The position numbers and the translations under genes are program-made. The notes under the pieces were generated by a model that was not told where the DNA came from, did not search any database, and saw nothing but the letters and a program-made list of their open reading frames with translations. Shown piece by piece: positions 36,485-52,155 of a stretch of 64,000 nucleotides of DNA. How positions within the stretch are numbered: the stretch's first letter is position 1; every line of letters begins with the position of its first letter. Origin of the DNA: Vibrio japonicus (GTDB lineage: Bacteria; Pseudomonadota; Gammaproteobacteria; Enterobacterales; Vibrionaceae); assembly GCF_024582835.1 (NCBI RefSeq), contig NZ_CP102097.1:558001-622000 (forward strand). The letters are read 5' to 3'.

Positions 36485-39349
36485 ATGACTGAATTACTTC
36501 AAAGCCTCAGCACACAAAATGAGTTCGTTGCTCGCCACAACGGACCAAACAAATCTGACCAACAAAAAATGTTGGACGCGATCAACGTAGCAAGCCTAGA
36601 CGCACTTATCGAAGAAACCGTTCCAGCTCAAATTCGCTTAGAGAAGCCTCTGAACATTGCAGAAGCAAAAAGCGAAGCGGATATGCTTGCAGCAATGCGT
36701 GAGTTCGCTAATCAAAACCAAATCAAGCGTACATTCATCGGTCAAGGTTACTACAACACCTTCACACCGAATGTCATTCTACGCAACGTATTTGAAAACC
36801 CAGGTTGGTACACAGCCTACACGCCTTACCAGCCAGAGATCTCTCAAGGTCGTCTGGAAGCGCTTCTAAACTACCAACAAATGGTCATGGACCTAACTGG
36901 TATGGAAATCGCGAACGCTTCTCTACTGGATGAAGCGACTGCAGCAGCAGAAGCGATGACACTGTGTAAGCGCGCAGGTAAGAGTAAAAGTAACGTATTC
37001 TTTGTGGCTGACGACGTTCACCCACAAACACTAGAAGTAGTAAAAACTCGTGCGAAATACATCGGCTTTGACGTACAAGTTGGTTCCCTTGAGTCGCTAC
37101 CAGAACAAGACGTATTCGGCGCACTAGTTCAGTACCCAGGCACAACAGGTGAAGTTCGTGATCTAACGGATATCATCGCTAAAGCACAAGCAAACAAAAC
37201 GCTAGTGACTGTTGCAACTGACCTACTAGCCTCTACTCTGCTAAAACCAGCAGGTGAGATGGGCGCAGATGTGGTCATCGGCTCGGCTCAGCGTTTCGGC
37301 GTACCTATGGGTTACGGCGGTCCACACGCAGCATTCATGGCAACGCGTGATAAGCATAAGCGAACAATGCCAGGCCGCGTTATCGGTGTGTCTATCGACG
37401 TAAAAGGCAACCAAGCACTTCGCATGGCAATGCAAACACGTGAGCAGCACATCCGCCGCGAAAAAGCGACATCAAACATCTGTACGGCGCAAGCACTGCT
37501 AGCGAACATGGCGTCTTTCTACGCGGTATTCCACGGTGCAGAAGGTTTACGCACGATTGCTCGTCGTACTCATCACATGACTGCAATTCTGGCTGCTGGC
37601 CTAACTAAATCTGGCTACGAGCTTGCTCACAACAGCTTCTTCGACACCATCACTATCAACTCTGATAGCAAAACAGAAGAGCTTTACGCGAAAGCACAGG
37701 CTGCAGATATCAACTTGCGTAAGCTAGATGGCAAACTAGGTATCAGCTTCGACGAAACAACAACCACTGACGACATCGACACGCTATTTGCCGTGTTTGG
37801 CGTAACACAAGACGTGAACGCACTATCTTCAGAAATCGCGAGCAACGAATTTGCAGCGATTCCAGAAGCGCTACGCCGCACATCTGAGTTCCTAACTCAC
37901 CCAGTGTTCAACACACACCACAGCGAAACGCAAATGATGCGTTACCTAAAACAGCTTGAGAACAAAGACTTCTCACTGACTCACGGTATGATCCCGCTAG
38001 GCAGCTGTACCATGAAGTTGAACGCAGCAGCAGAAATGATCCCTGTGACTTGGCCTGAATTTGGCTCAATTCACCCGTTCGCTCCATTAGAGCAAGCGGC
38101 AGGTTACGCAGCACTAGCGAAAGACTTGAAACAGAAACTGTGTGAAATCACCGGTTACGACGAGTTCTCTCTACAGCCAAACTCTGGTGCTTCAGGTGAG
38201 TACGCAGGTCTTATCGCGATTCAACGCTACCACGAAAGCCGTGGCGAAGGTCACCGCAACGTATGTTTGATCCCAAGCTCTGCGCACGGTACTAACCCTG
38301 CGACAGCATCAATGGTGTCAATGAAAGTGGTCGTTGTTAAGTGTGATGAAGAAGGCAACATTGACATGAACGATCTTGCTGCGAAAATCGAGAAGCACAA
38401 AGACAACCTTTCAAGCATCATGATCACTTACCCTTCTACGCACGGCGTATACGAAGAGCAAGTGAAAGAAGTATGTGAAATGGTTCATGCTGCTGGCGGT
38501 CAGGTTTACCTAGACGGCGCGAACATGAACGCTCAGGTTGCGTTGACATCTCCAGGCTTTATCGGCTCTGACGTGTCTCACTTAAACCTACACAAAACGT
38601 TCTGTATCCCTCACGGTGGCGGCGGTCCAGGTATGGGTCCTATCGGTGTTAAATCTCACCTAGCGCCTTTCCTACCAGGTCACATTGAGAACGGTGTTGT
38701 AGGTAAAGAGTTTGCGGTTTCTGCAGCGGATATGGGTAGCGCATCTATTCTACCTATCTCTTGGGCTTACATCGCGATGATGGGTGAAGCTGGTCTAAAA
38801 GAAGCGACTAAAGTTGCGATTCTGAACGCGAACTACGTGATGGAGCGTCTACGCCCTCACTACCCTGTTCTTTACCGTGGTACAAATGGCCGCGTTGCGC
38901 ACGAATGTATTATTGATATTCGTCCTCTAAAAGAAGAAACAGGCATCAGTGAAGAAGATATCGCAAAACGCTTGATGGACTACGGTTTCCACGCACCAAC
39001 CATGTCATTCCCAGTAGCAGGCACGCTAATGGTTGAGCCAACCGAATCTGAAGATTTAGAAGAGCTAAACCGTTTCTGTGATGCAATGATCGCAATCCGT
39101 GAAGAGATGGCTAAAGTGAAGAACGGTGAATGGCCACTAGAGAACAACCCTCTGGTTAACGCGCCACACACTCAAGTGGATCTTTACGCTGAAGAGTGGG
39201 AGCGTCCATACTCTCGCGAACTTGGCTGCTTCCCATCGAAAGCAACCAAATCTTGGAAATACTGGCCAACAGTAAACCGTGTAGACAACGTTTACGGCGA
39301 CCGTAACCTAATCTGCACATGCCCAAGCATCGAGAGCTACGAAGACTAA
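36485..39349 (+). CDS. gcvP: Glycine dehydrogenase (decarboxylating), P protein
   Basis: Decarboxylates glycine with PLP and loads the aminomethyl group on GcvH. The 954 residues are the fused single-chain form made of N- and C-terminal halves. The PLP lysine is in [18 protein letters not shown] (about residues 700-717), and the glycine-rich [11 protein letters not shown] and [15 protein letters not shown] are typical. Start ATG with AAAGGA just ahead. Codon use is biased as in glyA and gcvH, pointing to strong expression. Confidence 0.96.
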
Positions 39350-39376
39350 TTTCTTATTAGTCTCATAAACTAACGT

Positions 39377-39410
39377 AAAGGCGAACCAAGTAGTTCGCCT
39401 TTTTGTTTTT
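39377..39410 (+). terminator. Terminator of gcvP
   Basis: AAAGGCGAAC/GTTCGCCTTT stem with a 6-base loop followed by TTTGTTTTT. After it, 39411-39640 shows no gene. Confidence 0.9.
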
Positions 39411-39658
39411 AGCAATATGCTTGTGTTAGAACCTGAGCTACGTAGTGACTTGGATATGCCCAACAAACAATTCAGAGCAAGCACTTAATTATCTTTCGAC
39501 CTATGTGCATTTACTCTACTAAAAGTTATTCGATAGAGCGCAGGGCAACGTGACTCACACCGTCACTATGAGCGTTTAACTAGTCAAAGTGATATCTTGA
39601 GTGGTGAGCTCAGGGGATAACTAATCTAGGAGTAGCAACATTAAGTACTGTATTTTTT

Positions 39659-39796
39659 GTGCCAACTGCTTTAACACTTGGTATTTTCGCTGTTAGTGCG
39701 TTTATTGTTGGAAATGAAATATCTAAACTAGATGACCGATATAAATTCACTGAACCGATGAAGAAACAAGTAGAGAAAACTATTGATGACTTATAA
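39659..39796 (+). CDS. Small membrane protein with uncertain start
   Basis: The frame is open from 39608 to TAA at 39794. It codes one hydrophobic segment (FFVPTALTLGIFAVSAFIVG) and a charged tail ending VEKTIDDL. No ATG exists; GGAG at 39629-39632 points to codon 39641, which is TTA, one base from a TTG start. GTG at 39659 is the next legal start but lacks a ribosome site. The end overlaps the next gene by 11 bases, so they were a coupled pair. It may be real with a rare start or decaying. Confidence 0.4.
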   Translation: MPTALTLGIFAVSAFIVGNEISKLDDRYKFTEPMKKQVEKTIDDL

Positions 39797-40256
39797 TGAA
39801 AAATTTAACCGAAAGTTAAAAAGAAACCGTTGGCTAAAAGTAATAATTAGTTGGCCTCTTATGATTTTTATGGTTTGGTTAAGTTACAGCTCAATTAATG
39901 AGTTAGTGAGCATTAACAACTCAATCGGGACAATTCCTAAAGCAAAAATAGCGAGTTTAGTGAACAATGTAGCTTCTTTTGTTGGCCTGCTAATATTTGG
40001 TTTTATAGCGATCATTCCCATAGCCATGCTTCACCCCTCAACAGAGCCGTTACTAAAAGTACCATTTTTGACAAAAACAGGGCTATATACTGTAGCGATA
40101 ATCGTGTTAAGTTGTATTGCCTCTGCCATATGGTTAGACAACGATACTAGGGAAAAAATAAAGCAATATAACTATATCGAATGCGCCTCTGAACGAGAAC
40201 TTACATTGAAATCCTCAAGTCGAACGTATGTTTTAGACCCTAGCTTGTGTGATTAA
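39786..40256 (+). CDS. Membrane protein of unknown function
   Basis: 156 residues: basic N-terminus, three hydrophobic segments (about 17-34, 60-82 and 95-113), then a C-terminal tail with two cysteines (YIECASERELTLKSSSRTYVLDPSLCD). The tail resembles DUF1240-type proteins of enterobacteria, but I am not sure of the family. AT-rich and unlike its neighbours in codon use, which suggests acquired DNA. It overlaps the small membrane protein frame upstream. Confidence 0.6.
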   Translation: MTYNEKFNRKLKRNRWLKVIISWPLMIFMVWLSYSSINELVSINNSIGTIPKAKIASLVNNVASFVGLLIFGFIAIIPIAMLHPSTEPLLKVPFLTKTGLYTVAIIVLSCIASAIWLDNDTREKIKQYNYIECASERELTLKSSSRTYVLDPSLCD

Positions 40257-40288
40257 ATTAGCTTTTAATCTCTTGGCACACACCATCC

Positions 40289-40319
40289 AGCTAGCGTAAG
40301 TATGCATCATGCGCTAGCT
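40289..40319 (+). terminator. Possible terminator after the membrane protein pair
   Basis: AGCTAGCG and CGCTAGCT form an 8-base-pair stem with a 15-base loop, followed by TTC. The T-run is short. The rest of 40257-40498 holds no gene. Confidence 0.45.
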
Positions 40320-40498
40320 TTCAATAACTCGGTTTGCAATACTTAAAGTTATTCATGATTCGCTGATATATCACCTTGCGTAAATGACTTTTATGCATTT
40401 TGTTTATTCATCGAACAATCGAATCAGCTACGTGCAATCGCTCCAAGTCAGATGGTAAACTGCTCCTCTATTTTCATTTAGTGTTTAAAGGTAAAGCG

Positions 40499-40750
40499 AT
40501 GAACCCAATTATTGCAATGTTGAAAGAGAACAACATCAGCGACCAGCAGATCAGCGAACTTTTTGAAGTACTGACTCAGAACCCTCTTGCTGCCATGATG
40601 ACAATCAGCCAATTGGGTCTGCCGCAAGACAAACTGCAATTGCTCATGGGTCAAGTGATGCAAAACCCAGCTTTGATTAAAGAAGCGGTTGAAGAGCTAG
40701 GTCTTGATTTCTCGAAAGTTGAAGCCGCGAAAGCACAGCTGCAAAAATAG
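40499..40750 (+). CDS. DUF2999-type small protein
   Basis: 83 residues, helical, soluble: MNPIIAMLKENNISDQQISELF, then repeated QNPLA / QNPAL helices (TQNPLAAMMTISQLGLP, MQNPALIKEAVEELGLD). Vibrios carry this family widely; the function is unknown. ATG at 40499 has AAAGG ahead; the frame extends upstream to 40400 without support. It stands alone and is followed by a strong terminator. Confidence 0.7.
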   Translation: MNPIIAMLKENNISDQQISELFEVLTQNPLAAMMTISQLGLPQDKLQLLMGQVMQNPALIKEAVEELGLDFSKVEAAKAQLQK

Positions 40751-40789
40751 TCGTTTCTGACTTCTAGCATAGATTCAATGCACAACTTC

Positions 40790-40835
40790 AAAGGTCGTTA
40801 AGAGGCATGCAATACGCCGTTTAACGACCTTTCTT
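40790..40835 (+). terminator. Terminator of the DUF2999 gene
   Basis: A perfect 12-base-pair stem (AAAGGTCGTTAA/TTAACGACCTTT) with a 19-base loop. 40836-41110 has no gene. Confidence 0.8.
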
Positions 40836-41110
40836 ACTTCTGGCTTTCATTAAATACCACTCGCTGAATTTTAACCCTTTCGCTAAGTGTGCACGTTACG
40901 CACCTTTCTACTACGATCAAAACTCAGGCTGTTCTTTGTAAGCAGTAGGAGCAGATTTGTTAAACACTATTACAGCAATCACAGTCATTCTCGTATCATG
41001 ACTTTAGGTAAGCATGAGCCGATGATGACTATGATTGGTGTAAATAGCTACGCTAAGTAACACGTTGACTATGGTCGCTCTGAACACTGATTTTGCTTTG
41101 CTGAATGTTT

Positions 41111-41131
41111 ACGCGTTCATAGTGAACACGT
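41111..41131. promoter_or_regulatory. 21-base dyad over the ribosome site of the BBE-like gene
   Basis: The half-sites ACG.GTTCA and TGAAC.CGT face each other around TAG, with eight of nine pairs matching. The dyad ends 13 bases before the ATG at 41144. Its size and position fit an operator of a TetR-, MarR- or GntR-type repressor. No regulator gene is adjacent. Confidence 0.45.
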
Positions 41132-41143
41132 GAGGCAACTCGT

Positions 41144-42529
41144 ATGAAAAACTTAGAAAAATCCAAAATCGATGGCTTCAAAAACCAGTTTAGCGGTGAA
41201 GTCATTTTGCCTACCGACCCATCCTATAACGAAGTTCGACAAATTTGGAACGCGATGATCGACCGTAAACCCGGCATGATTGCTCGCTGTACTTCCGCCG
41301 ATGATGTCGTAACCGCAGTTAATTTCGCTCGTGATAATGGACTTCTCGTATCTGTTCGCGGAGGTGGACACAATATCGCGGGCAATGCGATGTGTGATGA
41401 TGGCATTGTCATTGACCTTTCACTCTTAAAACAGGTTCACGTCAATACAGAGACAAAACGAGCCACTGTCCAACCAGGCTGTACATTGGCAGATGTCGAT
41501 GCCGAAACGCAGAAGCATGCCTTAGCGTTTCCTGTCGGTATAAATTCCACCACTGGGTTACCGGGTCTCACTCTTGGTGGTGGATTTGGCTGGTTGAGTC
41601 GGAAATATGGTATGACGATTGATAGCCTACTGTCTGCCAACGTCGTGACAGCAGATGGACGTCAACTGCGCGCCAGCGAAACAGAGAACCCTGATCTTTT
41701 CTGGGGGCTACGTGGCGGTGGTGGTAACTTTGGTATTGTCACTCAGTTCGAATTCCAACTTCATCCAGTTGGGCCTGATGTGCTAAGTGGGCTCATTGTA
41801 TTTCCATTTGATCAAGCAAAATCCATTCTCACACAGTTTGCCAGTTTCACTGAAAGTGCCCCTGAAGAGTTAAGTGTGTGGATGGTCTCTCGACAAGCTC
41901 CTCCATTGCCGTTTCTGCCTGAAGAGGTGCATGGTAAGGAAGTAGTGGTTCTAGCGATTTGCTATGTAGGAGACCCAGCCGAAGGTGAAAAACTCATTGA
42001 GCCTTTGAGATCATTTGGTACGGCCCATGGTGAACACATTGGCGTTCAACCATTTGTTGCTTGGCAGCAAGCCTTTGATCCTCTCCTCACGCCGGGAGCG
42101 CGCAATTACTGGAAGTCACACAACTTCACGCACCTCAGTGAAGACGTGATCGATGCGACGATTGAATACGCAGGCCAACTACCTTCACCACAGTGTGAGA
42201 TCTTTATTGCCTCACTTGGTGGAGCTACGAGCCGACCTGCACCAGAATCAATGGCGTACTCTAGCCGAGATGCCAATTACGTTCTGAATGTACATGGAAG
42301 ATGGGATTCAGAAGATGAAGACGAACGTTGCATTACTTGGGCGCGTGAGTTCTTTGCCAAAACTAAGCCGTTTGCCAGTGGTGGTGCGTATATTAACTTC
42401 TTAACCAACGATGAAGCTGACCGCACAGAGTCAGCCTTCGGCGCAAGCTATACACGGTTACAAGAGATTAAGAAAAAATTCGACCCAAACAATCTGTTCC
42501 GGATGAATCAGAACATCAAACCACTTTGA
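41144..42529 (+). CDS. FAD-linked oxidase of the berberine-bridge-enzyme family
   Basis: 461 residues: FAD-binding PCMH domain (about 40-210) with VRGGGHNIAG, where H76 is the usual covalent FAD attachment site, and GLTLGGGFGW; substrate domain in the middle; BBE C-terminal segment FDPNNLFRMNQNI. The second attachment cysteine of bicovalent members is not seen (the segment reads FPVGINSTTGLPG), so the flavin is probably linked once. Such enzymes oxidise sugars, alcohols or secondary metabolites; the substrate is unknown. It has no signal peptide. A dyad lies over its ribosome site. Confidence 0.88.
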   Translation: MKNLEKSKIDGFKNQFSGEVILPTDPSYNEVRQIWNAMIDRKPGMIARCTSADDVVTAVNFARDNGLLVSVRGGGHNIAGNAMCDDGIVIDLSLLKQVHVNTETKRATVQPGCTLADVDAETQKHALAFPVGINSTTGLPGLTLGGGFGWLSRKYGMTIDSLLSANVVTADGRQLRASETENPDLFWGLRGGGGNFGIVTQFEFQLHPVGPDVLSGLIVFPFDQAKSILTQFASFTESAPEELSVWMVSRQAPPLPFLPEEVHGKEVVVLAICYVGDPAEGEKLIEPLRSFGTAHGEHIGVQPFVAWQQAFDPLLTPGARNYWKSHNFTHLSEDVIDATIEYAGQLPSPQCEIFIASLGGATSRPAPESMAYSSRDANYVLNVHGRWDSEDEDERCITWAREFFAKTKPFASGGAYINFLTNDEADRTESAFGASYTRLQEIKKKFDPNNLFRMNQNIKPL

Positions 42530-42550
42530 TCGGCTCCTATGGTTCAAATA

Positions 42551-42586
42551 AAAACGGCTCCAAGGTTACGCCTTGGAGCCGTTTTA
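42551..42586. terminator. Bidirectional terminator
   Basis: A 15-base-pair perfect stem (AAAACGGCTCCAAGG arm) with loop TTACG between two convergent genes. Confidence 0.93.
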
Positions 42587-42602
42587 TTGCCGAATTCTCG
42601 CG

Positions 42603-44618
42603 TTAATACTTTAACGACTCGATGAGGTAGTCCAACGTTGAAGGCGTTTTCTCAGCCGTATCCGTTGCTTCGTATTGCGGGTTGTAAATCGGTTGTTTCA
42701 ACCAACCACGCTCCACCAGCTCATCCAGCAAATCGTGATAGCGGAAGCTACATTTTCCAAGGTACAAGCTGTCTAACTTACGACTTTTCTCAGTGTGTAG
42801 TGCCTTTAAGAAGCCTTTGAGATACAGGTGATCTTTGGTAAAACCGCCACCGCGATACACACGTGTCGTCAGTGAGAACGCCGTTTCTTTCTCTAGCCCC
42901 AGCTCATCCATCAGGTAGCTGTAGGTCATGTAGAATTTTTGCTCTTTGAGCATCGAATCGACCGCCAGCACTCGGATCGCAAGCGTATTTAAGCGCTCGT
43001 GCGACAAATGCCCTGACTTGTACTCCGCCAGAATCGCCAAGCCTTCTTGGGTTAAGGTGGAACCCGGCAAGCCCATTCTGAAGATGTTGAGCGGCTGGCA
43101 ACGCGCGTTGTAGTTTGTCGCCATGTGCACACCGAGTTCATGCTCAACCAAGCGTTTAACTTCGGTATCGGTGAAATTCGCCTTCGCGTTCACAAACAGG
43201 GTCGGCGGGTTTGCAGACACCATCGCGCGCGCGGCCAGTGAATTCGACACCGTTACCTTACACTTCATCCCCATTTGTTGGGATGCTGCAAGCATACGCT
43301 CGCTGGCTTGGGTCGCACTTAGCTGTTCGTTGAACTCTTCTGGCAACACACGGGCGTAAAGCAAAAACTTGGCGTTATCGATGTCAGTCGTATCTGGTCT
43401 ACCGTGATAGCGAAGCGCGTTGTATAAAAACGCCTCACTGCCCACCGAGGTCAGCAAGTCCATTTTGTCGTTCAGCTTCTGCACCATGTCGCCATACAGG
43501 TGGCGCATATCCGGATCGGAGATGTTCTCGATCGGCAGGCGATACAGCTTTTGCTTGAACTCATTCACGTGGATCGGCAACTGACGGTAACGATAGTTCG
43601 GTTTATAACGGCTAGGCGCCGCCTGAAAACGCTTGAACTCCGCATTGAGGTTGCTTGGGTTGACGTACTTCAGCGTTTCAACCTTACTCGCCAGCTGATA
43701 AAGCTGTTTATCGACCGAAAGGAGATTCGGCTCGATGTTCGAGCTCAGCATGTCCGATTTCACTACGCGGCGCTTTTTGCTGTGTTTACGTTGCAAGAAC
43801 GCGCTGGTCTGACTGAATGCTTCTTTCAGACCGGACTGCAAGGCTTCCAGTACCAACGGGAATAGCGTGCCAGACTCTTCCTCCATGAACACCTTTTTCA
43901 CCTCAGTCGGCAGTACTAAGGTACGGTCAAAGTGTGCATTGGTATGAGAGATCAGATACCCGCGACCTTCAAACACCGAGTCAATCTCCGCCGTGGTGGT
44001 AATGTTTGGCAGCTCCATCTTACCCAGCTCGCTACAAAAACGGTGCACACTGGTGCCCCAGCGTTCCATATCGATCTGCGACGAGCCGATGTTAAACACG
44101 GGCGCATCACTCTTTTGGCGCTTGTAGTTGTATGAGTGCATGTCGAACACCACCACGTTGTCGTGCATGGATTCGAGCTTAGCAATGATGGCTTCGTACA
44201 CAGTATAAAAGGCCATGTGCTTACGATGGCTTTCAGCGCGGTGTCGAGTGCTGAGTGGCTTTTTCCACACCAAGCGGCTCCACGCAGACTTGTAGTAAGT
44301 ACTCAGGGTCAACGCGCGGTTAAGGTCGTATTCAAAGCGTGAGTCCAGACCAACCATGGTGATAGGCTGGGAGGCGATCATATCGTCTGTAAACGGGTCT
44401 TCTTCGAAGAAGCGTTCACTCTCGTCCAATACGCAGCGATGGATTAGCTCGTCTCTCAGGCGCGAACCGGCGTGAATCGCGGTGCAGACCACAGGCAAGT
44501 ATTCTTCTATTTTGACAAAGCAGCCCGCGTCGACCAACTCACCCGCAAAAGGTTGCCCTCGCTGGATCAGCGAGAGCATTTCAGCCAATGTGTATTGTTT
44601 ATGGTTCAATGTGTGCAT
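42603..44618 (-). CDS. N-formylglutamate-amidohydrolase-like / QEGLA (DUF1704) metallopeptidase fusion
   Basis: 671 residues in two parts. The N-terminal part (about 30-270) resembles N-formylglutamate amidohydrolases: TAIHAGSRLRDEL, DSRFEYDLNRAL, VVFDMHSYNYKR. The C-terminal part (about 310-655) is the QEGLA/DUF1704 family: HELGVH (H493, E494, H498, an HExxxH metal site) and TQEGLAILAEY (Q524-A528). The same domain in animals (MATCAP) is a tubulin carboxypeptidase that removes a C-terminal tyrosine; family members in bacteria are uncharacterised. ATG at 44618 is chosen over 44690, which would overlap the ATP-grasp gene by 92 bases; 20 bases still overlap. It is the last gene of a three-gene operon. 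Confidence 0.8.
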   Translation of the reverse strand: MHTLNHKQYTLAEMLSLIQRGQPFAGELVDAGCFVKIEEYLPVVCTAIHAGSRLRDELIHRCVLDESERFFEEDPFTDDMIASQPITMVGLDSRFEYDLNRALTLSTYYKSAWSRLVWKKPLSTRHRAESHRKHMAFYTVYEAIIAKLESMHDNVVVFDMHSYNYKRQKSDAPVFNIGSSQIDMERWGTSVHRFCSELGKMELPNITTTAEIDSVFEGRGYLISHTNAHFDRTLVLPTEVKKVFMEEESGTLFPLVLEALQSGLKEAFSQTSAFLQRKHSKKRRVVKSDMLSSNIEPNLLSVDKQLYQLASKVETLKYVNPSNLNAEFKRFQAAPSRYKPNYRYRQLPIHVNEFKQKLYRLPIENISDPDMRHLYGDMVQKLNDKMDLLTSVGSEAFLYNALRYHGRPDTTDIDNAKFLLYARVLPEEFNEQLSATQASERMLAASQQMGMKCKVTVSNSLAARAMVSANPPTLFVNAKANFTDTEVKRLVEHELGVHMATNYNARCQPLNIFRMGLPGSTLTQEGLAILAEYKSGHLSHERLNTLAIRVLAVDSMLKEQKFYMTYSYLMDELGLEKETAFSLTTRVYRGGGFTKDHLYLKGFLKALHTEKSRKLDSLYLGKCSFRYHDLLDELVERGWLKQPIYNPQYEATDTAEKTPSTLDYLIESLKY

Positions 44619-45639
44619 TCTTAACCGCCATTCGGAATGCACTCTTTCTCTGCTGTAGCAGGTCTTTCGAGTGAACAATGTTTTCGACAAAGTCGATCAC
44701 AGGTTTTTGCAGTCTCACGCGGTTGAGCTTGTTGATACGCATGATGCCACCCGGGCTCATTACGTTCACTTCCACCAGCTTGTTACCGATCACATCCAGA
44801 CCGGTGAAGTACAGACCATCACGCACCAATTTAGGACCGATTGCAGCACATAGGCGTTTTTCTTCTTTGGTGATGCTGTGTTTAACCACTGTACCGCCCG
44901 CGTGCACGTTAGAGCGGAACTCGCCAGACGCAGGTACACGACGCATCGCACCGATTGGCTCACCGTTCAGCATCAGGATACGTTTGTCGCCCTCTTCTGC
45001 CCCTTCAATGTAATCTTGAAGGATCACGTAGTTGCTCTGCTCGCCTTCACCAATGTAGAAATCAAGCAAAGAGCGGAAGTTTTGCTGCGCGTTTTTCTCG
45101 ATAACGATCACACCGTGACCACCAAAACCGTTTAGCGGCTTAAGGATCATCTTCTCGCTGTCGCTTTCTTCCAGTACGCGCTGCAAGTAATCGCGGTTTT
45201 TCGATACGTGCGTAGCAGGAATGAACTCGCTTGCCGCGCCGCCCATGCTGGCCGTGTACAGCTTGTTGTTTGCCAAACGCAAACCTTCCAGATCGTTGAT
45301 GATCAGAGTGTCATCTTTGATCGAATCAAGGAAGTTCAGTGCTAGGTTGTCTAGCGGTGGATTCGCACGCATGAAGATCACGTCAAAACCCGCCATTGGC
45401 AGACGCGCTTTTGAGAACTCGGCTTGACGGTAAAAAGATGGGATCTTGTCCGAAATCTTTTGTCCTTTCTTCAACACCTGACAAAAGCCGTAAACCGTGC
45501 TGTCACGGATTGTTAGCCCACTGGTGGTAGTGATTGCTACGGTATGACCACGGCTTGCACACTCATGGACAAGACGCAGTGTCGTATCAGTTTCTGGGCA
45601 CACGCGCTCCCATGGGTACATTAGAAAGCAGATATTCAT
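44599..45639 (-). CDS. ATP-grasp ligase (RimK/glutathione-synthetase-like)
   Basis: 346 residues with the ATP-grasp fold: pre-ATP-grasp domain (1-120, FMRANPPLDNLALNFLD), ATP lid with KMILKPLNGFGGHGVIVI (about 167-184), VILQDYIEGAEEGDKRILMLNGE (about 208-230) and the magnesium site DVIGNKLVEVNVMSPGGI (about 288-305). The layout follows bacterial glutathione synthetase, but the N-terminus and partner genes differ from the housekeeping gshB. It should join a carboxylate to an amine with ATP; substrates are unknown. Its start overlaps the DUF413 stop by 4 bases and its end overlaps the peptidase gene. Confidence 0.82.
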   Translation of the reverse strand: MNICFLMYPWERVCPETDTTLRLVHECASRGHTVAITTTSGLTIRDSTVYGFCQVLKKGQKISDKIPSFYRQAEFSKARLPMAGFDVIFMRANPPLDNLALNFLDSIKDDTLIINDLEGLRLANNKLYTASMGGAASEFIPATHVSKNRDYLQRVLEESDSEKMILKPLNGFGGHGVIVIEKNAQQNFRSLLDFYIGEGEQSNYVILQDYIEGAEEGDKRILMLNGEPIGAMRRVPASGEFRSNVHAGGTVVKHSITKEEKRLCAAIGPKLVRDGLYFTGLDVIGNKLVEVNVMSPGGIMRINKLNRVRLQKPVIDFVENIVHSKDLLQQRKSAFRMAVKNAHIEP

Positions 45640-45986
45640 TTACGGTCATCCTCAATGCTGTATGCGTTGTCGTCATCCGACAGATTTGGTTTGCTGTTTA
45701 GGGTAGAGAAGCTCTTTTTACCTCTGGCAAGGTGCACGTATTTCATCCACGTACGTTCTAGTTTGGTTGAGGCTTCTCTGTTACCTTTCGTCATGTCTAC
45801 AAAATCCGATTCCGTTTGATTCTCTGGTTCAAGCTGACCGTTTTCTAACGCTAAAAGAGTGGTACCGAAATAAGTGAGTATTTCGTCTTCAGCTAGCGTG
45901 AAGTCGCCCGACTTAGAAAAACCGCGGTAAAAATGAACATTGTCATAGAACCGAGCGTCACCTTGTCGAATATCTGTTGCAGACAT
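45636..45986 (-). CDS. DUF413 (MaoP-like) protein
   Basis: 116 residues. The DUF413 pattern is clear: ARFYDNVHFYRGFSKSGDFTLAEDEILTYFGTTLLALENG near the start, then FVDMTKGNREASTKLERTWMKYVH. The E. coli relative MaoP acts with the maoS site in organising the Ori macrodomain; here the protein has an acidic, serine-rich C-terminal tail (LSDDDNAYSIEDDRK) not needed for the domain. ATG at 45986 is used because the frame up to 46097 is unlike the family. It is the first gene of the operon with the ATP-grasp ligase and the peptidase. Confidence 0.78.
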   Translation of the reverse strand: MSATDIRQGDARFYDNVHFYRGFSKSGDFTLAEDEILTYFGTTLLALENGQLEPENQTESDFVDMTKGNREASTKLERTWMKYVHLARGKKSFSTLNSKPNLSDDDNAYSIEDDRK

Positions 45987-46182
45987 AGATAAAGTCTCAA
46001 AAGTAGTAAATTTTTGGGAGGCGGAAAGATATGTGTTTTTGCCCCACCTATTCAACAAGGATATTTTGTCGTTATGATTGATTTTTGTTATTAACAAATC
46101 TGAAGATTGATGAAAACTTCATCAACACAGGCCTTGCGCGTAAAAAACAGCGACCGATGCTCCCGATAACCCAAAGGCAAAA

Positions 46183-46214
46183 AACACAAAAGCGAACCCG
46201 AAGATTCGCTTTTT
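46183..46214 (-). terminator. Terminator of the CDGSH-glutamate synthase-like gene
   Basis: AAAAGCGAA/TTCGCTTTT stem with an 8-base loop; on the minus strand a T-rich tail follows. It lies 24 bases past the stop. Confidence 0.8.
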
Positions 46215-46237
46215 AGTGGTGGCACTGCCCTTTATTC

Positions 46238-47794
46238 TTATTCATCGGCTGCCAATGGCGTCACTCCTGCGTATCGAATGCCCGACAGCTTCGCCATCTC
46301 CCGATTCCAAGTGGCTAAGTCATAGCGGTTAAACTGACGCAACTCGTTATGTCCGCATGCCCTTGCCATCACCTGCATCAACTCGGTGGAGGCGTCAAAA
46401 AAATTCTTTAACTGATGAGATGACTTCTCAATATCCAGCCTTTGACGCAAATCCTCTCTTTGGGTGGCGATACCTGCCGGACAATTGTTGGTGTTGCATA
46501 TCCTCGCGGCCACACAACCAATCGACTGCATCGCACTGTTGGCAATCGCCACGCCGTCAGCCCCAAGTGCGAGCGCTTTGACAAAATCTATCGGAACACG
46601 CAGCCCGCCCGTGATAATCAGCGTCACGCGCCCACTTGCACCAATTTTGTCCAGATAGGCGCGCGCTCTGGCCAGCGCCGGAATGGTCGGCACGCTGATG
46701 TGATCGCGGAACATCACCGGAGCCGCGCCTGTCCCGCCTCCGCGTCCATCTAGAATAATGTAGTCAGCACTGGCATCGACCGCGAACTGGATATCCTCTT
46801 CAATATGGTTGGCACTCAATTTAAAACCAATCGGGATCCCGCCAGTGATGTCGCGGACATGGTTAGCAAACTGTTTGAAATCGTCCACGGTATGCAAATC
46901 GGTAAATGTCGGCGGCGAAATAGCTGGGGTGCCGGGCGTTAAGCCGCGTACCTTGGCAATTTTCCCTACATTCTTCGCTGCGGGTAAGTGGCCACCTGTG
47001 CCCGTTTTTGCACCTTGGCCGCCTTTAAAATGGAACGCTTGCACCTTTTTCAACTTCTCTTCGTCGTAGCCAAACTTGGCGCTGGCGAGCTCATAAAAGT
47101 AGCGTGAGTTAGCCGCCTGCTCTTCAGGCAGCATGCCGCCTTCACCGGAGCATATCCCCGTTCCCGCCAGCTCTGCGCCTGTGGCAAGAGCGATCTTGGC
47201 TTCTTCTGAGAGCGAGCCAAAGCTCATGTCTGACACAAACAACGGAATACTGAGTTTAAGCGGCTTTTTCGCTTGCGGGCCAATCACCAGTTCCGTTTTG
47301 ACTGGCACGTCTTCAAGCAGTGGCTGCGTCGCCATTTGTGCCACCATGATTTGGATATCGTCCCAGTGTGGCAACAAATGCCGAGGGACGCCCATCGCCG
47401 TCATGGGCCCGTGATGACCAATCTGAGAAAGCCCTTCCCGTGCCAATTGATGAATCAACTCAACGGTCGGCTCTTCTTTGGTCGCGCTGGCGACAGGCGC
47501 ACTGGCGGGTGATTGAGTTTGCACGCCCGGCCCTTCTTGGCCGACTTGTTCATTTGAAAACTGCTTGTGGGTACCATCGCAATACGGCGGATTTTGGGTA
47601 TGCTTGCAACGACACAAATAGGCGTCACCGCTTTCTTCGGCGACAAAGCGTTTCGGTTTCAAACCTGTGCCCTTATGAGAACCATCACAAAAGGGCTGGT
47701 TACTGGAACGCCCGCACGCACAAAAGTAGTATTCCTCTCCTTGCTTGAGTGCCACTTTTATCGGCTTGTTGGCTGCAATGACTGGCTTGCTCAT
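46238..47794 (-). CDS. Double CDGSH iron-sulfur domain fused to a glutamate-synthase-like FMN domain
   Basis: 518 residues. N-terminus: two CDGSH (mitoNEET-type) 2Fe-2S sites, C25/C27...C36-DGS-H40 and C61/C63...C72-DGT-H76; then a proline/alanine-rich linker (to about 105); then the GltB-type FMN barrel (about 120-515; DMSFGSLSEEAKIALATGAELAGT, FKGGQGAKTGTGGHLP, IILDGRGGGTGAAP, GCVAARICNTNNCPAG with the 3Fe-4S-type cysteines). It has no glutaminase domain, so it is not a complete glutamate synthase. The CDGSH part may pass electrons to the FMN. ATG at 47794 is preferred; the 5' end diverges from the AAA gene. Confidence 0.85.
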   Translation of the reverse strand: MSKPVIAANKPIKVALKQGEEYYFCACGRSSNQPFCDGSHKGTGLKPKRFVAEESGDAYLCRCKHTQNPPYCDGTHKQFSNEQVGQEGPGVQTQSPASAPVASATKEEPTVELIHQLAREGLSQIGHHGPMTAMGVPRHLLPHWDDIQIMVAQMATQPLLEDVPVKTELVIGPQAKKPLKLSIPLFVSDMSFGSLSEEAKIALATGAELAGTGICSGEGGMLPEEQAANSRYFYELASAKFGYDEEKLKKVQAFHFKGGQGAKTGTGGHLPAAKNVGKIAKVRGLTPGTPAISPPTFTDLHTVDDFKQFANHVRDITGGIPIGFKLSANHIEEDIQFAVDASADYIILDGRGGGTGAAPVMFRDHISVPTIPALARARAYLDKIGASGRVTLIITGGLRVPIDFVKALALGADGVAIANSAMQSIGCVAARICNTNNCPAGIATQREDLRQRLDIEKSSHQLKNFFDASTELMQVMARACGHNELRQFNRYDLATWNREMAKLSGIRYAGVTPLAADE

Positions 47795-47968
47795 ACGTTC
47801 CCCCTCCGTTTTGCGCTGCATCATTCAAGTCCTGCTCTTGTAGAGTAAAGGTGATGTCACCCACCATTTCAATTTCAGCCATCAATGACTCTGAATTTGG
47901 AGGCCTTGTTTAAAGACCCTTGCTTAAAGACCACAGCTTTCAAGCGATATGCTCAGAATTGACTAAAC

Positions 47969-48000
47969 TTTTTAGATAGCAACCTTTTTAGATAGCAACC
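47969..48000 (+). repeat. Two tandem copies of a 16-base unit before the AAA gene
   Basis: TTTTTAGATAGCAACC occurs twice head-to-tail and ends 15 bases before the first ATG of the next gene. It may be a replication slip or a paired binding site in the promoter. Confidence 0.85.
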
Positions 48001-48015
48001 AACAAGTTAGAGGTC

Positions 48016-48606
48016 ATGATGAAAAAGCAACTGCAGGTTGTGGTAACTGGAGGCCCAGGGGGCGGCAAAACCACCGCGCTGGATCTCTTTCGCCGAGAGT
48101 TATGCCATAAAATAGCGGTCGTCCCTGAAGCCGCAACGATGCTGTTTTCCAGCGGCGTTACCCGCTCAAACAATAAAAAGATCATCAAAATGGTGCAAAA
48201 AACCATTTTCCAACTTCAGAAGAATTTAGAAGACATCCATAAAGTCCAGTACCCAGAACGCCTGCTGGTGTGCGATCGCGGCTCGTTAGACGGCCTTGCA
48301 TATTGGCCAGGCAAAGAGCAAGAGTTCTTTACCGCAGTGGGCTCCAGTTTTGAAGAAGAGATGGCCCGTTATGATGCGGTGATTTTTTTCGAGTCCGCCG
48401 CCGCAACAGGACAAGATATCAGCAGCAATAATCCGGTTAGAAAAGAGTCTTCGGAACAAGCGGCAGAACTCGATAAAAAACTGCAAAAGATTTGGTCAAG
48501 GCACCCTCACTTTTACTTTGTCGGCAGCTCGGAATCCTTCGTGCGAAAAATTACGTTTGGAATAATGACTTTAGAAAACGTGATTAATCAATGTCATGGA
48601 CCATGA
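48016..48606 (+). CDS. AAA_28-type P-loop ATPase/kinase
   Basis: About 196 residues. Walker A is VVTGGPGGGKTTALDLF (about 9-25) and a Walker B-like LLVCDRGSLDGLAYW follows (about 88-102). The plan (P-loop at the very start, VPEAATMLF, CDRGSLD) is that of the AAA_28/NadR-kinase-like family; members phosphorylate or hydrolyse nucleotides or bind phosphoinositides, function here unknown. Two ATGs in a row start the frame; the second (48019) has the better distance from TTAGAGG. It is a single gene. Confidence 0.78.
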   Translation: MMKKQLQVVVTGGPGGGKTTALDLFRRELCHKIAVVPEAATMLFSSGVTRSNNKKIIKMVQKTIFQLQKNLEDIHKVQYPERLLVCDRGSLDGLAYWPGKEQEFFTAVGSSFEEEMARYDAVIFFESAAATGQDISSNNPVRKESSEQAAELDKKLQKIWSRHPHFYFVGSSESFVRKITFGIMTLENVINQCHGP

Positions 48607-48990
48607 GATTGTCACACTTTCCACAATCCACTTTACCCGCCAGCACCATTGATCTAATACGAGCATTGATCGATTGAGGTGGACTTTTTAGTAAAACTGA
48701 ACAAAACCAAAACATTCAAGAAGCCGGATAAACGACAAAATAGAAATAAAATAGGCAGATAAAAAGAGACAAATTAATAACATTAGATTCAATATTAATT
48801 ATTGATCTTAATAAAAGATGATACTCTGACAATATCGTGGAGCACATAATTATATACAACGGAATTGATTGAGCGGTTATTTATGACGAGGGACATTGAG
48901 TTATCCAAACTTAGTCATCTGTACTGTAATTTAGTTACTATTATCATATAATTACTGCCACATAATAAATATAGGTCACTGTTAAGGGTA
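48607..48990. other. AT-rich gap without a gene
   Basis: 384 bases, AT-rich, with stretches such as ATTAATTATTGATCTTAATAAAAG. I find no gene, strong hairpin or clear promoter pair; it presumably holds the promoter of the following sensory operon. Confidence 0.5.
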
Positions 48991-49962
48991 ATGTCTATGC
49001 TTTCTGGTGTCGGTCGCACCTATGCGTTAATTCTCAGTTTCATCTTATCTTTTCTTCTATTCGTTCCATCGGTTTCCGCAGCTCAGCCAGTGAAAGCGTC
49101 TTCACGTGAAAATACGCTTATCATCGGAGTAATTAGTCATAACCCAAGAAAGGCATTTAAACGGACCCAACCATTTGCCGATTACCTTGCCGCTAATCTT
49201 CAACAGCACAAAATCACATCTGCTCGTGTTGTCGTGGCGAAAAGCATTCCACAAATGAAGCATTGGTTAAATAACGGTCAGGTCGATCTTGTATCTGATA
49301 CTGTATTTGCAGCCAGTGAACTCACTCGCGACTCTGGCGTACATATCCTCGCCAGACGATGGAAAAGTGGCGTAAGTGAATACTCTTCTGTTTTCTTTAC
49401 TAAGAAAAATAACCAGATCAACTCTTTCGACGATCTCGTTGGAAAAACGATAGTTTTCGAGGACCGAGGATCAACAAGCGCATTTCTTATTCCTGTGTCT
49501 ATTTTAATCGAGCAAGGTTATAAGTTGTATGAATTGACTTCTCCCCGAGAGCAGCCCCCAGAAGGCGCAATTGGTTACTTTTTCTCTGATGAGTTTTCTA
49601 AGTCTGGCGGAGAATCCAACATGATGAGTTGGGTGCATAGAAACATTGTCGCTTCTGCTGCGTTTAGTGATAGTGACTGGAATAAAGAAATACCCGAACA
49701 GATAAAGAATCAACTCCAAATAATTTATACCAGCCCCCCTATACCACGCTCACTGATGCTGGCACGCCCTGATATGCCTGAAAAGTTACAAGACGACATT
49801 ACACAACTGTTGCTCACAGCTCATGAAAATGAACAGGGTAAACACGCGTTAACTACATACAGAAAAACTAAAAAATTCGATGCTATCTCTTCGGACGTTC
49901 TGGCAAGTATAGAATGGGCTGGGCAAAGAAAGGCCCTTATCGATGCGTATATGGCACGTTAA
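48991..49962 (+). CDS. PhnD-like periplasmic binding protein
   Basis: 323 residues: signal peptide (about 1-31, ending SVSA) and a phosphate/phosphonate-type binding fold (about 40-310): LIIGVISHNPRKAFKRTQPFADYLAA, QVDLVSDTVFAASEL, SFDDLVGKTIVFEDRGSTSAFLIP. No permease or ATPase is nearby; a membrane GGDEF-EAL protein follows after 15 bases. It therefore looks like a sensor subunit that reports a ligand to that enzyme, as NspS does to MbaA in V. cholerae. The ligand is unknown. ATG at 48991 or the third codon both fit AAGG. Confidence 0.85.
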   Translation: MSMLSGVGRTYALILSFILSFLLFVPSVSAAQPVKASSRENTLIIGVISHNPRKAFKRTQPFADYLAANLQQHKITSARVVVAKSIPQMKHWLNNGQVDLVSDTVFAASELTRDSGVHILARRWKSGVSEYSSVFFTKKNNQINSFDDLVGKTIVFEDRGSTSAFLIPVSILIEQGYKLYELTSPREQPPEGAIGYFFSDEFSKSGGESNMMSWVHRNIVASAAFSDSDWNKEIPEQIKNQLQIIYTSPPIPRSLMLARPDMPEKLQDDITQLLLTAHENEQGKHALTTYRKTKKFDAISSDVLASIEWAGQRKALIDAYMAR

Positions 49963-49977
49963 ATTTAGAGACTAGAG

Positions 49978-52155
49978 ATGAAGTTAAAGAGCAAACTAGT
50001 CCTTGGGAATATGCTTATGGTCATATTGACTATGGGCTGCTTATCATTTTCGCAATGGATGATTTCATCATACTTTGGTGAAAAAATTGTGGCAGAGACG
50101 TCGGATAACATGTCTGAGAGCTTTAGCGACCATGCACGAGATAAAGCTGAACAGACGATAAATTATTTGTCAGACGCTCTGCTCAATCCTATGTACTTTT
50201 ATGACATTGAAACCATTCAATCATTGCTCGAGCCCGCATTAAAAGACACTTCAACCATAGCAATTAAAGTTTTTGATACAAAAGGCGTCGTTATTCATAC
50301 CGGAAGTGACTTAGTCAATGATTACGGTATGGCGCTTCAGATGCCTGCACTAGAGGAAGCGGTTTTAAGACAAAGACGAGCGTATTTTGAAAACGACATT
50401 GATACACTAGCCATTGCACGCCCTTTAACCCTAAACAATGAACTGCTTGGTGGCGTTGTTTTGGAATACTCCCTAAAATCGATGCAGGAAGACATTCAAG
50501 ATAATAAAACCATCATTAAAGAGATTAACCAGCTAAGTAATCAATACAGTACACTATTGATCGCCCTAGTAACGGTTATCATGTGCCTGATCAGCCTACT
50601 CCTCTCTATGTTAATGGCAAATACAATCATTGGTCCCATCACCCAACTCGTCCACCACTCCAAGCGTATCAAAAAAGGGCAATATCAAACCCCAAACCGT
50701 ATTCAAAGAGACGATGAGTTAGGTTTACTCGCTAAGTCATTTAATGAAATGGACGCCAGTCTAAAAGAGAGAAGCGATGCAATAGAGTTCCTTGCTTACA
50801 ATGACCCATTGACGAAACTACCAAACCGGATGCAGTTTATTGATTTCTTAGAGCGGAAGCTTGAATCTTCCAATCCAGACTACAATCAATTTGCTGTATT
50901 TTTTATTGATTTGGATGAATTTAAGCGTGTAAATGATAATTTGGGGCACCAAGCGGGGGATGATCTCCTCTGTGAAGTCGCCTCCCGCATAAGCGATAGT
51001 GTTCGAAAAACCAGCGAAATAGAGAAGCAGAAGGTAACCAATTTACTTGCCAGAGTGGGTGGCGATGAATTTATCCTCTATGTCTCGGGTATTCATGACT
51101 TATCATTGGCGCATAAATTTGCAGCTGATGTGATAAGCGAACTCAAAAAGCCAATTTTTTTGCCAGAGCCGAGTGAGTCCGTCGTTGTTGGCGCCAGCAT
51201 AGGTATCGCACTTTATCCCGAGTCTGGGGCAACGTCCGAAGAGCTGGTGAGAAATGCAGATATCGCCATGTATGCCGCTAAGTCTTGTGGGAAAGGCAGC
51301 TATCGTCATTTCACTCAAGAGATGGAACAGCAAGTGATTAATAAGGGGCAGATTGAACGCGATCTTCGTTCGGCACTGTCTGATTTCTCCCAGTTTGAAC
51401 TTTACTATCAGCCAAAAATCGATTTAAAAACGGCGCAAATCGTTGGTGTGGAAGCGCTAATACGTTGGAACCACCCAAGTAAAGGAAGCATTTTACCTGG
51501 CGAGTTTATTCCTGTTGCAGAGGCAACCGATATTATCCATCCTCTTGGAGATTGGGTTATTGAACAAGCATGCCGAGATTTAAGCGTGTGGCGTGATTTT
51601 CTCAGCCCCTCCGAATTCCACGTTGCCTTGAATTTATCGGCTAAACAGCTTTATGCACAAAAAATATCGGACACCGTCAGCCTGTACCTTAAAGAATACC
51701 GCTTACCATCGTCTTATATGCATGTCGAAGTGACAGAAACCGCTCTCATGGTGGATAAGAACAGCGCCAAAGAGACGCTAGATACACTCCGAGCAATTGG
51801 TATCGAGGTTTGGCTGGATGACTTTGGTACGGGATACTCTTCGCTGGGTTATTTACGTGAATTTAGTATTGACGGTGTGAAAATTGATCGGAGTTTTATC
51901 TCAGATATACAAGATGACGCCAACGACAGAGCCCTGTGTGCCGCCATCATATCAATGGCTCACCAACTTGGAATCAAGACCGTTGCAGAAGGGATAGAGA
52001 CACACCAACAATCCTCATTCTTAACACAAGAAAGCTGCGATTTTGGTCAAGGTTATTTGTATGGTAAGCCCATGCCTGCTGAAAAACTCACGCAAAAGTT
52101 ACAACTAAACCACCAACAAAAAGCGGACAACATTGTACGAATTTCAGTGAAATGA
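49978..52155 (+). CDS. Membrane GGDEF-EAL dual c-di-GMP enzyme with HAMP
   Basis: 725 residues: helix 8-30, periplasmic domain (about 31-190), helix 193-215, HAMP (about 215-268), GGDEF domain (about 275-440) and EAL domain (about 455-700). The synthase motif is intact (ARVGGDEF near residue 361), without an RxxD inhibition site upstream. The phosphodiesterase keeps GVEALIRWNHP (EAL near 491) and DDFGTGYSSLGYL and KIDRSFI, so it may also degrade c-di-GMP. The periplasmic domain probably contacts the PhnD-like protein of the same operon. Net activity is not deducible. Confidence 0.92.
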   Translation: MKLKSKLVLGNMLMVILTMGCLSFSQWMISSYFGEKIVAETSDNMSESFSDHARDKAEQTINYLSDALLNPMYFYDIETIQSLLEPALKDTSTIAIKVFDTKGVVIHTGSDLVNDYGMALQMPALEEAVLRQRRAYFENDIDTLAIARPLTLNNELLGGVVLEYSLKSMQEDIQDNKTIIKEINQLSNQYSTLLIALVTVIMCLISLLLSMLMANTIIGPITQLVHHSKRIKKGQYQTPNRIQRDDELGLLAKSFNEMDASLKERSDAIEFLAYNDPLTKLPNRMQFIDFLERKLESSNPDYNQFAVFFIDLDEFKRVNDNLGHQAGDDLLCEVASRISDSVRKTSEIEKQKVTNLLARVGGDEFILYVSGIHDLSLAHKFAADVISELKKPIFLPEPSESVVVGASIGIALYPESGATSEELVRNADIAMYAAKSCGKGSYRHFTQEMEQQVINKGQIERDLRSALSDFSQFELYYQPKIDLKTAQIVGVEALIRWNHPSKGSILPGEFIPVAEATDIIHPLGDWVIEQACRDLSVWRDFLSPSEFHVALNLSAKQLYAQKISDTVSLYLKEYRLPSSYMHVEVTETALMVDKNSAKETLDTLRAIGIEVWLDDFGTGYSSLGYLREFSIDGVKIDRSFISDIQDDANDRALCAAIISMAHQLGIKTVAEGIETHQQSSFLTQESCDFGQGYLYGKPMPAEKLTQKLQLNHQQKADNIVRISVK

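Follow-up and report, generated by a model that had tools for sequence, protein, structure and literature searches.

An ATP-grasp ligase and an FGase-QEGLA/MATCAP fusion hydrolase encoded in one Vibrio japonicus operon: a candidate low-salt-responsive module for adding and removing a C-terminal amino acid

The analysed stretch of Vibrio japonicus DNA (64,000 nucleotides, contig NZ_CP102097.1, positions 558,001 to 622,000; hereafter the window) carries on its minus strand, at 42603-45986, three genes that overlap one another by 4 and 20 bases. They encode a DUF413 protein, an ATP-grasp ligase and a fusion metallohydrolase. A preliminary description had proposed this three-gene operon, its strand and overlaps and the DUF413, ATP-grasp and QEGLA domains; the reading frames and profile scores bear it out in each of these points. 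The features of the locus are as follows.

45987-46237, no strand: 251-base gap 5' of the operon, presumed from its position to be the promoter region.
45636-45986, minus strand: DUF413 (MaoP/YifE family) protein of 116 amino acids, identified with PF04219 and NF008252; its acidic C-terminal tail ends SIEDDRK.
44599-45639, minus strand: ATP-grasp ligase of the NF009110/PRK12458 subfamily, 346 amino acids, assigned by its NF009110 score.
42603-44618, minus strand: FGase-QEGLA/MATCAP fusion metallohydrolase, 671 amino acids from the ATG at 44618 or 695 from the TTG at 44690.
44061-44495, minus strand: N-formylglutamate amidohydrolase (FGase) domain of the fusion (Pfam extent), from PF05013 and residue conservation.
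42621-43634, minus strand: QEGLA/MATCAP domain of the fusion (Pfam extent), from PF08014 and the HELGVH and QEGLA motifs.

For the DUF413 gene a longer frame with a TTG start opens at 46097; the alignment of its relatives starts at the ATG at 45986. Other loci, genomes, contigs and taxa are referred to below by our own handles (L, G, C, f and g numbers) where they need to be told apart.

The C-terminal part of the fusion scored 311.6 bits with PF08014 (MATCAP; cut-off 27) and 403 bits with TIGR02421 (cut-off 339). Together with the intact HExxxH and QEG motifs and the MATCAP fold, these scores place it in the QEGLA/MATCAP family. A phmmer search of PDB sequences with the fusion gave no match and a profile search reached MATCAP; the peptidase domain has the fold and metal motif of human MATCAP, with 21% identity over the structural alignment. 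The likeness to the animal enzyme proposed earlier was thus confirmed. The preliminary description was right about this peptidase part of the fusion and had left the N-terminal half unnamed. That half is an FGase domain, as indicated by its PF05013 score (49.5 bits, cut-off 28.9) and its conserved site residues: H73, E96, E97, D183 and H185 (numbering of the 695-residue frame) were invariant in 40 aligned sequences, duplicates included. Judged by this conservation, H73, E96/E97, D183 and H185 are likely to be the metal-site residues. In seven unfused-type QEGLA proteins, from f33, f42 and f53 genomes and Shinella (L057:7954-9981, L049, L051, L053, L054, L090 and L125), the region before the QEGLA domain resembles an FGase domain (probability 89%, E 2e-6 by hhalign) that has degenerated, with ExW in place of the DxHS region. 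Five of them (L049, L051, L054, L057 and L090) have a separate FGase gene nearby; none was found near L053 and L125.

Association of the ligase with the hydrolases was observed in distant bacteria. In a search with the fusion as query the ligase was directly upstream in all 11 loci, which came from Vibrio, Ferrimonas, Colwellia and Flavobacteriia; in two Flavobacteriaceae the FGase and QEGLA domains are on separate genes. In a survey of 299 genomes of one phylum, nine of ten NF009110 matches directly adjoin a QEGLA gene and the tenth is at a contig edge. Overall, the ligase, FGase and QEGLA co-occur in Vibrionaceae, Ferrimonas, Colwellia, Flavobacteriia, the f33, f42 and f53 genomes and on a Shinella plasmid, where FGase, QEGLA and a relative of the ligase are followed by Na+/H+ antiporter genes. 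The co-occurrence of QEGLA proteins with this ATP-grasp group, which the preliminary description had put forward for checking, is therefore a conserved neighbourhood. In Photobacterium a QEGLA gene is within 1.5 kb of 50 of the 51 detected ligases. In the exception (G421; L232, L233) the two are 53 kb apart on opposite strands and the QEGLA gene has a partial FGase match, which is consistent with an inversion that broke the fusion gene inside its FGase domain.

QEGLA/MATCAP-type proteins as such are more widespread: the survey gave 34 matches in 29 of the 299 genomes, nine beside an NF009110 ligase and 25 not. These stand-alone genes were considered as carriers of the same module and rejected: 21 of the 25 were read and BLAST found an NF009110-like ligase in none. 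A weak ATP-grasp relative (64 bits) was seen about 300 bp from the stand-alone gene of L134. A second, stand-alone QEGLA gene on contig C1 of the window genome (L058:4712-7204) adjoins a Na/Pi symporter gene, and a second QEGLA gene of G093 (L125:6158-9110) overlaps a 349-amino-acid gene that has no similarity to the module ligase at the threshold used. In a Crocinitomicaceae locus the gene immediately before the ligase (L008:4593-4976) is one that, by eye, we take to be MsrB-like.

The ligase passed the NF009110 cut-off (487 vs 408 bits). It scored below the cut-offs of the GshB equivalog TIGR01380 (247 vs 299 bits) and of the RimK models NF007764 (51 vs 331 bits) and TIGR00768 (82 vs 143 bits). 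In the phylum survey the ten NF009110 matches over cut-off, in eight of the 299 genomes, all scored at least 461 bits and the next best scored 241. This clear gap separates NF009110 members from GshB and counts against an ordinary glutathione synthetase. In addition, a canonical gshB (459 bits to TIGR01380, cut-off 299) is present elsewhere in the genome, on contig C1, which makes routine glutathione synthesis by the operon ligase unlikely. By sequence, E. coli GshB is the nearest protein of solved structure, and the GshB-type catalytic positions agree between 44 ligase-family rows and 23 GshB proteins. The position of GshB Thr288 is Gly in 44 of 44 rows. The substrate-side loop also differs from that of GshB and has an invariant Ser, which is present as well in the alpha-L-glutamate ligase chain 7qyr. 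The 44-row tables, this one and that of the HdfR neighbours below, include duplicate records such as L002/L141 and L003/L143.

Of the 44 rows, 29 (17 of them Photobacterium) have a gene for an HdfR-like LysR regulator close to the module; where FGase and QEGLA intervene, its distance from the ligase reaches 5.4 kb. Nine of these same LysR proteins had gone into the LysR profile used for this table; an NCBIfam scan served as the independent test. For ten LysR proteins, the nine module-linked ones and that of L017, the best model was HdfR with 182-260 bits and the next best reached at most 105. Three of the nine (L053, L054 and L057) come from genomes of other families in which the phylum survey gave no DUF413 match. 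The E. coli genes hdfR and yifE (maoP) are adjacent and divergently oriented (PMC5023128). The usual Vibrionaceae arrangement is thus an hdfR-maoP pair to which the ligase and hydrolase genes are joined. Many relatives, in which DUF413 has a divergent HdfR-like gene, resemble the enterobacterial MaoP/HdfR locus, with two enzyme genes added. The window departs from it in that its DUF413 gene, a second copy in the genome, has no hdfR-like neighbour; the other copy in the genome (L017) has an hdfR-like gene beside it.

A link to low salt comes from a published transcriptome of Photobacterium damselae RM-71. At 1% versus 3% NaCl, A0J47_RS17020 (annotated 'glutathione synthase') was up 38.42-fold, RS17025 (QEGLA) 27.51-fold and RimK 52.24-fold (PMC10308900). 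RS17020 and RS17025 are very probably the ligase-QEGLA pair described here, since a QEGLA frame some 660 residues long or longer is present in each of the 52 Photobacterium genomes examined, the locus tags are consecutive and the genes are on chromosome II. The genus assignment of these genomes (group g160) follows from two of them whose coordinates coincide with those of named records (G425 with NZ_CP119424, G364 with NZ_CP073579). The gene discussed in that report as glutathione synthetase GshB is then probably the ligase paralogue instead.

A second link is to the Rlo proteins, which control hypoosmotic tolerance in P. aeruginosa and of which RloA cuts polyglutamate in vitro (PMC12239564). 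On four contigs of genus g105 (L052, L055, L056 and L057) RloA-, RloB- and RloC-like genes come after the ligase, identified in L057 by Pfam and NCBIfam and in the other three by similarity and TIGR02291 coordinates. L057:3765-12115 holds an HdfR-like LysR, FGase, QEGLA, the NF009110 ligase and the RloA-RloB-RloC-like genes together. MscS-channel and CorA genes were seen near the copy of the set in L052. The window genome has an RloC of its own on contig C1. A similarity search of window positions 38001-52000 for RloA-like proteins, in which RimB was not used as query, found no retropepsin gene beside the ligase.

The explanation that we favour, tentatively, is a low-salt-responsive, HdfR-linked module that joins an amino acid to a peptide or protein at its C-terminal carboxylate and removes it. 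The ATP-grasp ligase would attach the amino acid by an amide bond, and the two zinc domains of the fusion, FGase and MATCAP-type, would take it off again. The logic would be that of RimK/RimB polyglutamylation or of tubulin TTL/MATCAP, with another set of enzymes. We infer both the ligation chemistry and the action of ligase and hydrolases on the same bond. Glutamate as the ligated amino acid is a guess, and DUF413 is one candidate acceptor, in Vibrionaceae only.

Several points weigh against this explanation. The activity of the module is predicted and its substrates are candidates, and a salvage or metabolite pathway would explain hydrolases in the operon of a ligase just as well. The ligase also scored above the PRK05246 glutathione synthase equivalog cut-off (280 vs 272 bits), and its structure model was poor (pLDDT 65.6, from 12 sequences) and was not used. 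The spread of the module is patchy: 58 of 159 Vibrionaceae genomes and three of 13 genera have it. No HdfR-like gene is in the stretch read in 15 of the 44 rows, the window included, and only two of the nine module-linked LysR proteins exceeded the 240 bits required by the HdfR equivalog, with 182-217 for the others. The Rlo link is limited to one genus of fragmented genomes. In the P. damselae experiment 1,808 genes changed (PMC10308900), and RS17020 and RS17025 were identified with this pair indirectly, from conservation across the genus, consecutive locus tags and chromosome.

Nearly as likely as ligation and removal of an amino acid on a protein or peptide is a module for a small-peptide metabolite. 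In this case the GshB paralogue would make a glutathione-like or N-acyl-amino-acid peptide, which FGase and QEGLA would recycle, and no protein would be modified. Those FGase relatives whose function is known liberate glutamate by cleaving a small amide (HutG chemistry), and the sequence proximity of the ligase to E. coli GshB and its GshB-type catalytic positions point the same way. So does a sodium:dicarboxylate symporter gene directly upstream of the ligase in a Flavobacteriaceae locus (L010:3576-4904), as does the E. coli mutation yifE Q100stop, which raises hdfR and gltB transcription (PMC8674398). The Gly at the Thr288 position and the loop unlike that of GshB argue in the other direction, as do those animal relatives of the QEGLA domain that have been characterised, whose substrates are protein C-termini (PMC10499314). 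Also against it, the neighbours, looked over without systematic annotation, showed no biosynthetic or export gene that recurs.

A narrower proposal takes the C-terminal tail of DUF413/MaoP as the substrate, which the MATCAP domain would trim and the ligase re-extend, tuning HdfR/MaoP functions. The window protein is clearly of this family, and so a relative of MaoP, which organises the chromosome (PF04219, 105.9 bits, cut-off 25) and falls slightly below the MaoP equivalog cut-off of NF008252 (PRK11027; 130.3 vs 135 bits); its one match among PDB sequences (E 0.14) is not credible. In favour of the proposal, DUF413 was found less than 500 bp upstream on the same strand at 51 of 51 detected Photobacterium ligase loci and in 20 of 20 Vibrionaceae loci read further, 15 of them Photobacterium. 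QEGLA and DUF413 matches are present in 52 of 52 Photobacterium genomes, exactly one of each in 51. In one Vibrio-group locus (L140:4562-8528) two DUF413 genes flank the ligase-fusion pair, one on each side. Directly upstream of the ligase it was found in Vibrionaceae loci only. DUF413 was not in the fetched flanks of the module in Ferrimonas, Flavobacteriia, the f33, f42 and f53 genomes and Shinella, nor in those of the Vibrionaceae locus L006, and in Colwellia it lies 1.6 kb from the module on the opposite strand. The phylum survey gave no DUF413 match anywhere in the f33, f42 and f53 genomes, and it had DUF413 together with NF009110 over cut-off only in G000 and G243, adjacent in both. The preliminary description, which had named DUF413 as the partner of the two enzymes, therefore holds in Vibrionaceae and fails as a general rule.

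It had also named the DUF413 protein, with its acidic tail, as a natural candidate target, and here the evidence is divided. Acidic tails were found also on DUF413 proteins without such a ligase nearby. In Photobacterium, where the tails are variable in sequence and length outside the conserved tip, the linked DUF413 ends in [D/N/E/S]-[LIM]-[D/E/N]-[Y/F/I] in 49 of 51 genomes (Tyr in 37, Ile in 8, Phe in 4); G438, with no ligase detected and a partial DUF413 match only, is outside this count. This tip, which recalls the tubulin tail, was present in none of 29 unlinked DUF413 proteins from other genera, 24 of which end in Asp or Glu. It may be a trait of the genus rather than a mark of linkage, because linked Vibrio tails, SIEDDRK of the window among them, lack it and the sole unlinked second copy in Photobacterium (L230, G318) ends DDDIDF and fits it. 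The pattern comes from one clade and hence from few independent events; it could also be, we presume, a docking motif of the SSB type. In a 112-residue YifE homologue from the same order, residue 100 is the Gln at the start of a 13-residue acidic tail, so that, given the Q100stop effect (PMC8674398), the DUF413 tail probably matters. This evidence fits tail editing and a docking motif equally. Deletions of hdfR and maoP have near-identical effects on an RpoS-dependent reporter in E. coli (PMC11188689). On balance DUF413 may be the target in Vibrionaceae and is unlikely to be so in general, and we regard the tail as an unlikely substrate of the module. Bolder still, and a long shot, is the idea that the acidic tail of Vibrionaceae MaoP is a regulatory tail like that of tubulin: the MATCAP-type domain would trim the last residue (Tyr, Ile or Phe in Photobacterium), the operon ligase would restore or replace it, and this reversible editing of the C-terminus would let salinity, through HdfR, tune how the chromosome is organised and how glutamate is metabolised.

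That the ligase is an ordinary second glutathione synthetase placed beside unrelated peptidases is very improbable, for although PRK05246 is passed and the P. damselae gene was discussed as such an enzyme (PMC10308900), the separate gshB, the gap between NF009110 and GshB scores and the tie to FGase and QEGLA across phyla all speak against it.

The proposed module for C-terminal ligation and removal can be compared with several known systems. With GshB the window ligase has in common the fold family and catalytic residues; it differs as a separate subfamily with Gly at the Thr288 position, tied to hydrolases in a genome that has a canonical gshB besides. Tubulin TTL/MATCAP (TMCP) likewise combines a MATCAP-fold peptidase with HExxxH and an ATP-grasp-type ligase, TTL; the window fusion has an FGase domain added and, as noted, 21% identity to MATCAP. 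In RimK/RimB (S6 polyglutamylation) an ATP-grasp ligase is again joined by a dedicated peptidase, RimB, which takes off the glutamates added by RimK (PMC11957791), and RimK too was strongly induced at low salt in P. damselae. RimB, however, is a retropepsin and the window peptidase a zinc FGase-MATCAP protein, and the ligase is far below the RimK cut-off. The RloA-RloB-RloC osmotic stress locus shares the combination of ATP-grasp and protease, the low-osmolarity physiology and, in g105, adjacency to this ligase; of its proteins, RloA is an aspartic protease that is secreted and RloB resides in the membrane (PMC12239564), and neither is near the window operon.

Directly upstream of the operon and on the same strand, window positions 46238-47824 encode a protein with CDGSH and glutamate synthase domains. 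An Rfam scan of the window gave no family above gathering score and a tRNA search of it found none. A defence system was considered and rejected, as a PADLOC search with the three operon proteins gave no match at E 0.01. In the literature searched, no bacterial function for QEGLA/MATCAP-type proteins was found, one transcriptome table being the only record, and no publication pairing ATP-grasp with DUF1704; coverage was incomplete and an earlier mention of the gene set is possible. Searches on amidoligase or peptide tagging, and on FGase, glutathione synthetase, salinity and Vibrio, found nothing.

For nine of the 34 QEGLA matches of the survey, these data supply fixed partners (the ligase, FGase and often an HdfR-like regulator), a probable induction by low salt and a chemistry that can be tested. 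They also suggest that the P. damselae 'glutathione synthetase' that low salt induces is an enzyme of another kind. If the substrate is a metabolite, the module would make a new peptide at low osmolarity. If it is a protein, this would be a new bacterial cycle of C-terminal modification, the peptidase side of which is related to tubulin detyrosination.

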